Of a stretch of 64,000 nucleotides of DNA, positions 1,683 to 45,443 are shown one piece after another. The notes under the pieces were generated by a model. The model had not been told where the DNA came from. It saw nothing but the letters and a program-made list of their open reading frames with translations, and did not search any database. Each line of letters opens with the position of its first letter. Position 1 is the first letter of the stretch. Origin of the DNA: Natronorubrum tibetense GA33 (GTDB lineage Archaea > Halobacteriota > Halobacteria > Halobacteriales > Natrialbaceae); contig NZ_KB913017.1 of assembly GCF_000383975.1 (NCBI RefSeq), positions 1,965,105 through 2,029,104 on the forward strand. The letters run 5' to 3'. The position numbers and the translations under genes are program-made.

Positions 1683-1756
1683 GCCGCCTTAGCTCAGACT
1701 GGGAGAGCACTCGACTGAAGATCGAGCTGTCCCCGGTTCAAATCCGGGAGGCGGCA
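1683..1756 (+). tRNA. tRNA-Phe (GAA)
   Basis: A 74-nt cloverleaf. The acceptor GCCGCCT pairs with AGGCGGC, with discriminator A. The anticodon loop CTGAAGA carries GAA, and the T-arm is CCCGG-TTCAAAT-CCGGG. There is no intron and no encoded CCA. An array of copies of its own 3' end follows directly. Confidence 0.96.
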
Positions 1757-8537: not shown

Positions 8538-8650
8538 GTCCGGGTGCGAGAATCGAACGACGCCGAGACGTGCTCGCTGACGCTGCGCGCGACTCGTCTA
8601 GTTCGATTTCGATCGGACTTTCGACTCCTCCGTGAAGTCGTCGTCAGAAA
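8538..8650 (-). repeat. Hairpin element carrying a copy of the tRNA-His 3' end
   Basis: Directly downstream of tRNA-His on the minus strand. A hairpin CGGACTTTC...GAAAGTCCG begins inside the tRNA 3' end. Then come a 5' arm GTCCGATCG/AATCGAAC, a loop with GCGCAGCGTCAGCGAGCAC, and a 21-nt copy of the tRNA-His T-arm and acceptor 3' strand (8538-8558). The arms pair across the T-arm sequence as in the Phe and Ile arrays, although the T-arm sequence itself is different. Confidence 0.7.
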
Positions 8651-25172: not shown

Positions 25173-25323
25173 GAGGTGGTTCGAGAGACCGGAGGCCTCT
25201 CGTCATCAAGCGAACCCTTCGGTTTCGCGGACCTCGCGAAGCTTCACTTCGCTCGGTTGCTTCGACTCGCGTGCCTCAAATCCCGGATCTGGCTTTCGCT
25301 CCTCACGATTGTTCGTCGTAGAA
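25173..25323 (-). repeat. tRNA-Thr downstream element fused to an IS-end-like hairpin module
   Basis: Reading away from tRNA-Thr on the minus strand: a hairpin GCTTTC...GAAAGC containing CGACGAACAATCGTGAG. Then CCGGGATTTGAGGC (25273-25286), complementary to the tRNA T-arm. Then GAGCGAAGTGAAGCTTCGCGAGGTCCGCG, GCGAAACC...GGTTCGC, TTGATGA and CGAGAGGCC...GGTCTCTCG (to 25173). The last part matches the plus-strand module at 50.96-51.05 kb in order and spacing. Confidence 0.62.
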
Positions 25324-28694: not shown

Positions 28695-28778
28695 CATAAA
28701 TAGAGTGAGCGCAGTGCGCCGGTGGTGAGCAAATCCGAAGGATTTGCGATCCTCGGCGCGAGTGAATGAAATGAACGA
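28695..28778 (+). repeat. tRNA-Gly promoter and leader with duplicated tRNA 5' end
   Basis: CATAAATAG (28695-28703) is the only good box A. Downstream, GCGCCGGTGGT (28716-28726) repeats the first 11 bases of tRNA-Gly exactly. It is followed by the hairpin GCAAATCC-gaa-GGATTTGC (28729-28747), CTCGGCGCGAG and GAGTGAATGAAATGAACGA. The primary transcript would thus carry a leader of over 50 nt. Confidence 0.6.
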
Positions 28779-44866: not shown

Positions 44867-44940
44867 GGGCCAATAGCTCAATCAGGTTGAGCGCCACTCT
44901 GATAAGGTGGAGGCTCTCGGTTCAAATCCGAGTTGGCCCA
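44867..44940 (+). tRNA. tRNA-Ile (GAT)
   Basis: 74 nt. The acceptor GGGCCAA pairs with TTGGCCC, with discriminator A. The anticodon loop CTGATAA carries GAT, and the T-arm is CTCGG-TTCAAAT-CCGAG. There is no intron. Copies of its 3' end follow. Confidence 0.96.
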
Positions 44941-45225
44941 TTTCTGCTGCGAACAATGCGAACGTAGTGAGCCGTGAGCAGCAAAAATACATCCTACTCG
45001 GATTTGAGCCTTGGAAGTCACAGCCCGGGAGTGAACGAAGTGAGCGACCCGGAATGTCTTCCTTCGGTTCAAATCCGAGTTGGCCCATACTTTTGCGGCA
45101 AACAAATTCGTGAGCCGCGAGTACGTGCTGCCGCGAGGATTTGAATTACGCGAGTCGCATGCCCGGGAAGCGAGTGGAACGAGCGACCCCGAACGTCTCG
45201 AGGTGGTTCAAATCCAGCTGGCTGC
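44941..45225 (+). repeat. Array of tRNA-Ile 3'-half copies and hairpins
   Basis: The order is the same as behind tRNA-Phe. First a hairpin CTGCTGC...GAGCAGCA. Then arm ACTCGGATTTGAGCC (44996-45010), complementary to the T-arm, an inner GGAAG...CTTCC hairpin, and an exact 22-nt copy of the tRNA 3' end (45066-45087). Next a GCGGC...GCCGC hairpin, arm GGATTTGAATT (45137), a GAGCGACC loop, and a partial T-arm copy GGTTCAAATCC (45205-45215). The T-arm differs from tRNA-Phe, yet each arm matches its own tRNA. Confidence 0.8.
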
Positions 45226-45443
45226 CGAACTGGTCTCTGAGGGGAGCCAGCCGCTACGCCGTCGGGGGCTGCTCGTCGGTCCCGGAGCCGTCGTCATCTC
45301 CCTCGGCATCGGCATCGCCGCCGGCGTGAGCACGTTCCTCGAATCGACGCTGTCGCACGTCTCGAATCAGTCGCGGCTCATCGAGATTGCACAATATTCA
45401 CACAACCCTTATATCGTCACGGCCCCTACCAAGGGATAATAAA
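45226..45443. other. Spacer and promoter of the HTH regulator at 45444
   Basis: No gene is supported. CTTATAT (about 45408-45414) is a good box A, placing the mRNA start a few bases before the ATG at 45444. Confidence 0.5.

Follow-up and report, generated by a model that had tools for sequence, protein, structure and literature searches.

The DNA behind the tRNA-Ile gene of Natronorubrum tibetense GA33 raises the question of what a segment is that repeats the 3' end of the tRNA in front of it and also carries an arm complementary to that same end. In the 64,000-nt window (the whole stretch of DNA analysed, to which positions refer), tRNA-Ile (GAT) was located at 44867-44940 by ARAGORN and matched Rfam RF00005 with 69.6 bits; this gene and every element of the array behind it lie on the + strand. 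A T-run, TTTCT (44941-44945), abuts the 3' end of the tRNA and leads into proximal hairpin 1 (44945-44983), which folds as TGCTGC...GCAGCA with tandem G.A mismatches. Antisense arm 1, ACTCGGATTTGAGCC (44996-45010), complements the T-loop and the 3' strand of the T-stem of tRNA-Ile and falls in a match (44994-45082, E 1.5e-6) to R1, a covariance model made from 40 units, most of them taken from other genomes. Core hairpin 1, folding as GGAAG TCACAG ... GGAATGT CTTCC (45013-45062), is of a type that recurs at tRNA-Ile of other families, and it is followed by sense copy 1 of the tRNA 3' end (45064-45087), identical over 24 nt, of which 45067-45087 correspond to tRNA positions 53-73; antisense arm 1 and the copy pair with one G.U pair. 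Behind a T-run 3' of this copy (45091-45094), unit 2 consists of a GCGGC/GCCGC proximal hairpin (45095-45118), antisense arm 2 (45135-45147; R1 match 45131-45221, E 1.7e-5), a type B core hairpin (45150-45204) with compensating stem changes with respect to the close relative L321, and a decayed sense copy 2 (45206-45226) that is intact in L321. The folding z-score of the array was -5.7 and none of 200 shuffles was equally good. A preliminary description had noted this array as found here, although the end that it gave, 45225, is slightly short, since the array runs to 45226.

The same description held that the order of elements is that found at tRNA-Phe, and all the elements were indeed located in the same order at both tRNAs. 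The tRNA-Phe (GAA) gene, the second host in the window, was placed at 1683-1756 (+) by tRNA search, and its array spans 1757-2014 on the same strand. Unit 1 has a T-run with the proximal hairpin (1757-1792), an antisense arm detected by R1 and by sequence (1800-1813), a core hairpin near-identical to Ile core 1 (1815-1866) and an exact 21-nt copy of tRNA-Phe positions 53-73 (1871-1891). Unit 2 (1936-2014; R1 E 3.3e-11) has its antisense arm at 1936-1949, its core at 1954-1989 and a partly decayed copy at 1994-2014. The near-identity of the core TGGAAGTCACAGCCCGGGAG...GGAATGTCTTCC at tRNA-Ile and tRNA-Phe, also claimed beforehand, held in the sequence. On the - strand, tRNA-His is followed by one full unit (8538-8614; R1 E 2.3e-10), with antisense 8614-8600, a core and an exact copy at 8558-8538, and tRNA-Thr by a half unit (25274-25290) in which the antisense arm is kept and the copy lost; tRNA-Thr-GGT is the only gene of the whole genome with a clear antisense arm without copy. 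The original observation was therefore confirmed as real, and its extent is much larger than first stated. R1 finds units behind 27 of the 46 tRNA genes of the Natronorubrum tibetense GA33 genome, and when the flanks of every tRNA locus located in it were read by eye, approximately 32 were seen to carry one, some of them degenerate.

The general layout of the 3' unit is a T-run, a GNA-type hairpin, the antisense of tRNA positions 53-64, a conserved core hairpin and the copy of positions 53-73. Identity to the tRNA over 21 nt was found in 112 of 174 copies. In the sample the arrays held one to three copies, and the copy-to-copy spacing of the units, about 60-195 nt, is too small for genes. Three core types were distinguished: A, GAGGTTCTGCG...CGCAGGTTCTC; B, GTCGCA...CGTC; and C, GGGAGTG...AACGACC. 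Core types are common to several tRNAs and species, and one tRNA may carry different types in different species. The core was inspected by eye for an RNA guide of the kink-turn or H/ACA type and rejected as such, being without the required bulge. Among the apical loops C(GNA)G, a loop that makes a very stable DNA hairpin, predominates, accounting for 69 of the 98 triloops. The motif GCGAACGAAGTGAGC / GAGCGAAGCGAGC, with tandem G.A and a GNA triloop, was recurrent genome-wide in cores and proximal hairpins, and a similar sequence is also present near 28700 in the window. Some copies, belonging to different tRNAs and genomes (L013, L016, L030, L059, L283, L289, L291 and L344), have an extra base, mostly a pyrimidine, at a common site following tRNA position 57, where a bulge in the helix is predicted. 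Five tandem units with alternating core types lie at tRNA-Ser-TGA in L354 (G007:C1:705200-706400), and this array resembles a duplicated two-unit block.

A conserved core outside this strain had been required of the initial proposal, and the core was found class-wide in Halobacteria. Of the Halobacteria sampled, 22 of 24 gave an R1 match, whereas the 124 genomes taken from elsewhere in the phylum gave none. A strict sequence pattern was present in 279 of 391 Halobacteria genomes, with zero matches of the reversed control, and when applied across the phylum it was found in 26 of 295 genomes, every one of them from Halobacteria. The unit family is thus essentially restricted to Halobacteria within the phylum and nearly universal there. 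The units also keep close to tRNA genes. R1 gave 101 matches in three complete genomes, each from a different family, and for 92 of them a same-strand tRNA lies upstream within 800 nt, mostly at a distance of 26-80 nt. Three further matches follow genes that the tRNA lists had missed, for tRNA-Trp, tRNA-Pro and tRNA-Leu, three are downstream of a tRNA and score better on the other strand, and the remaining ones lie behind a decayed tRNA end or in a displaced array. Seemingly orphan units were traced in this way to tRNA-Pro-CGG, tRNA-Trp, tRNA-Leu, decayed tRNA ends or a displaced array. Among the pattern matches in named genomes, 81 of 126 were within 300 nt downstream of a tRNA, and many of the other 45 were bacterial chance matches, contig edges or reverse-strand reads. 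Two loci are recorded here as separate observations. In L346 (G000:C1:1777300-1783500) the array behind tRNA-Arg-TCT is split, the second array beginning inside a core 3.8 kb downstream, and by eye the intervening genes resemble those for a BCCT transporter and a universal stress protein. At G002:C1:2635124-2637763 about a dozen tRNA-like genes are densely clustered; some of them are weak, none has a unit behind it, and the cluster may be viral.

Units are kept at tRNA-Ile in several families and are missing in others, even within one genus. Since many tRNAs have none and they are lost within the same genus, any function must be dispensable; the units are freely gained, lost and core-shuffled. 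This ease of gain and loss may be explained by recombination between the tRNA end and the copy, which would delete the unit and leave the tRNA intact.

Whether the arms follow the adjacent tRNA was addressed at the level of the genome, with 5000 permutations of the tRNAs. The mismatch sum of the copies with their own tRNA 21-mer was 216 versus 372.6 +/- 10.0 for permuted tRNAs, and that of the antisense 13-mers 153 versus 194.6 +/- 5.6. The covariation with the adjacent T-arm that the preliminary description had called for is present at positions 57 and 62-64. At tRNA position 57 the tRNA and the antisense base were A/T in 145 cases, G/C in 17 and discordant in 3 (counts that ignore phylogeny), and the antisense fits its own tRNA at T-stem positions 62-64 well above permutation, with no clear match beyond them. 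At tRNA-Ile, the arms shift across families with the T-stem (CCGAG to CCGCG) and with the T-loop. When tRNAs of the same anticodon were compared between two species in which they differ slightly, every one of the 79 informative units had a copy with the base of its own tRNA, even in the unpaired acceptor part. The similarity-based selection of copies favours this result somewhat, although up to five mismatches were allowed. Because the copy tracks its own tRNA even at positions outside the hairpin pairing, the sequences indicate that it is homogenised with that tRNA. For the antisense arm, the same comparison gave 61 cases closest to the own tRNA, 19 in which the tRNA of the other species was the better match and 7 ties, as expected of a slower compensatory partner. 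The earlier alternative of recombination or conversion is consequently supported for the copy as homogenisation, but it explains the antisense arm poorly. A retro-copy of the mature tRNA was rejected, CCA being found after only 1 of 134 last copies.

The strand and fold of the units were then considered. In 143 of 162 units the fold of the tRNA-sense strand is the more stable one. In tRNA-oriented units, non-Watson-Crick cells at the T-loop positions and position 53 were G.T in 117 cases versus A.C in 2; at the T-stem positions G.T was not commoner than A.C. The covariation score, uncorrected for phylogeny, was 0.268 versus 0.144 for shuffled alignments, and none of 500 shuffles reached it. 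Ten pairs show double changes, some of them outside the tRNA-derived part (columns 18-75 and 22-71). Strand bias, G.T tolerance and covariation together point to RNA, or at least to one strand of that polarity. A T-run of at least 3 within 15 nt followed 45% of last copies and 47% of tRNAs, compared with 8% of controls, and within the unit a T-run comes after the structure, as in a terminator. T-runs behind unit-free tRNAs were similar and not stronger; therefore the units do not replace weak terminators, and compensation of this kind was discarded. In Haloferax volcanii a T-run followed by C is a measured termination motif, and two RNA 3' ends have been described for a Haloferax tRNA-Pro (PMC7237163). 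In another study in Haloferax, 10 of 11 tRNA fragments were 3' trailers, as reported in PMC3544259. These published observations support transcription of the trailers indirectly.

Our favoured reading, held tentatively and with a little less than even confidence, is that the units are class-wide structured cassettes acting in cis in the precursor tRNA, partly as extra 3' ends. Alongside the observed layout, covariation, strand bias, copy homogenisation and T-runs, we infer that the units are transcribed, that they pair in the cell and that they confer a benefit. Read-through from the tRNA promoter would transcribe the units, the antisense would pair with the distal copy and so form a stable hairpin immediately upstream of the following T-run, and each unit would supply one more tRNA-like 3' end. 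An antisense without partner could invade the T-arm of the tRNA, and a copy without partner could compete for the tRNA 5' half. As antisense and copy would need each other within one transcript, the arms would stay matched. In the DNA, the tRNA end and the copy form direct repeats that would permit precise slippage or conversion, by which units may be gained, lost and homogenised with the tRNA undamaged, and the universal T-loop sequence would enable the exchange of cores between tRNAs.

Secondary-structure calculations at 113 loci gave a predicted T-stem probability of 0.77, which fell to 0.15 with the antisense in the absence of the copy and was 0.64 when the copy was added. The predicted value was 0.15-0.19 with the antisense versus about 0.75 with a scrambled antisense. 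Two energy-parameter settings gave the same output, which does not count as independent support. For the full transcript of these 113 loci the calculations have the acceptor strand pair with the copy in place of its native partner (0.72 versus 0.17 for the native pairing, multiloop energies being unreliable), so that full protection of the tRNA is not predicted.

A mirror form of the unit was identified by sequence and pattern search upstream of tRNA-Gly-CCC in the window (28716-28759, +), with a copy of the 5' end at 28716-28726, a hairpin and an antisense arm at 28751-28759. The order there, 5' acceptor-end copy, hairpin, antisense and then tRNA-Gly (28716-28778), is also that of L261 and L349. 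A Gly-specific mirror pattern was present in 15 of 194 Halobacteria genomes belonging to six families, with zero matches of the control, and Haloferax elongans tRNA-Gly-TCC has two tandem mirror units. Seeming 5' copies at tRNA-Asp and tRNA-Gly-GCC were discarded, as they are tandem whole tRNAs. A leader of about 300 nt has been described for Haloferax volcanii tRNA-Gly-CCC (PMC4983044). Because the mirror unit lies in front of tRNA-Gly, a terminator function alone cannot explain the units.

Several explanations compete with a cassette acting in cis. The units could be a functionless mutational by-product, a micro tandem-inversion duplication generated by template switching at hairpins beside tRNA ends, in which slippage would keep the copy identical and quasi-palindrome correction would keep the arms complementary. 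Such an origin agrees with the sense-antisense-sense layout, which has a hairpin at each junction and is seen behind the tRNA 3' end as well as, in mirror orientation, before the 5' end, with the frequent gain, loss and tandem arrays, and with the homogenisation of the copy even where it is unpaired. However, core families are retained from one taxonomic family to the next and show compensating changes, the strong strand asymmetry and the G.T tolerance at T-loop positions are unexpected of a DNA palindrome, and within the phylum the units were found only in Halobacteria, so we regard this explanation as unlikely. Alternatively, they could derive from integrases that target tRNAs, as remnants or satellites, with the copy of positions 53-73 as the attachment site and the rest as an att arm. 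Integrases prefer tRNA 3' ends (PMC8371274), known haloarchaeal prophages likewise leave a duplication of about 22 nt from the 3' end of the tRNA (PMC3119063), and arrays displaced by inserted DNA exist (L346, L200). Nevertheless, no unit was found in phage records or in 2.9 million viral contigs: the phage records gave no attP-like match and the viral contigs zero matches with three core patterns, and the matches of looser viral patterns, never near tRNAs, were taken as due to chance. The plasmid search yielded matches only in large chromosome-like replicons, and no recombinase gene or mobile cargo lies between the repeats. With nothing convincing from the phage, plasmid and viral-contig searches, a mobile-element reading was dropped. 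In addition, the first copy of the displaced array L200 is without preceding antisense and core, and att identity leaves the tRNA-matched antisense arm and the strand-specific folding unexplained. We consider an integrase origin improbable, and there was no sign that the units are mobile elements which integrate into tRNAs, as viral and phage copies were lacking and nearly all units are on the same strand 3' of a tRNA.

The pairing itself can also be read as a bistable switch or antisense regulator of the tRNA, in which the antisense would pair with its own T-arm or with the copy and the extent of read-through would decide tRNA maturation. It is in accordance with the antisense-specific invasion of the T-arm predicted by folding and with the complementarity of the antisense to both the tRNA and the copy. 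On the other side, the predicted invasion is one of secondary structure, an antisense without copy is rare and the loss of units is tolerated; we judge such a switch, on these models, to be doubtful. Its broadest version, in which tRNA genes of Halobacteria would generally be bistable precursors whose antisense sequesters either the tRNA end or the copy, so that transcript length or a binding protein would select the tRNA or a decoy end, seems to us similarly doubtful. Finally, a REPIN-like selfish hairpin moving through single-stranded DNA and confined to tRNA neighbourhoods would fit the mostly C(GNA)G apical loops and the sharing of core types by several tRNAs and species. This we hold to be very improbable, given that hardly any units are away from tRNAs, that the arms fit the local tRNA and that units are vertically retained at tRNA-Ile across families.

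Under the reading as cassettes acting in cis, the units may affect the folding or the ending of tRNA transcripts and, if functional, would constitute a general cis-acting layer on haloarchaeal tRNA precursors; were the bistable alternative true, there would be cis-acting control of tRNAs at the 3' end and, for tRNA-Gly, at the 5' end. The units also provide a natural case for testing how the two parts of one hairpin stay matched to a third sequence, one through homogenisation and the other through compensation. Moreover, short duplications of tRNA 3' ends in haloarchaea are by themselves no evidence of an integrated prophage.

Regarding known systems, only the tRNAs matched Rfam, which has no family for the units, and we found no earlier description of this tRNA-tied, covarying structure either there or in the open literature searched. 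The att duplications of tyrosine recombinases similarly place a copy of about 21-22 nt of the tRNA 3' end downstream and keep the tRNA intact, whereas the units are spaced about 60-195 nt without integrase or cargo, have an antisense arm and a conserved core hairpin, follow most tRNAs and are absent in viral and phage records. With REP and REPIN palindromes they have in common being short, extragenic, hairpin-forming, multi-copy and lineage-restricted, but the units strictly adjoin tRNA genes, carry arms that copy that tRNA and show no dispersal. Archaeal T-run or fail-safe terminators are comparable in that the T-run is equally frequent after the tRNA and after the last copy; the units differ in holding a matched antisense/copy hairpin and in having a mirror form upstream of tRNA-Gly. 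Tandem inversion duplications present a sense-antisense-sense layout with hairpin junctions. The units share this layout, although on a scale of about 20 bp, with conserved cores and class-wide. The tRNA 3'-trailer fragments of Haloferax (Heyer et al. 2012, as described in PMC3544259) are RNAs from the same side of tRNA genes, and that description makes no mention of a tRNA copy or antisense arm. The nearest published feature is a short palindrome of Methanopyrus kandleri, described as species-specific (PMC5217627), which lies at a distance of about 10 bp behind the gene for roughly half of its tRNAs and differs from the units in having a fixed sequence and carrying no copy of the tRNA.
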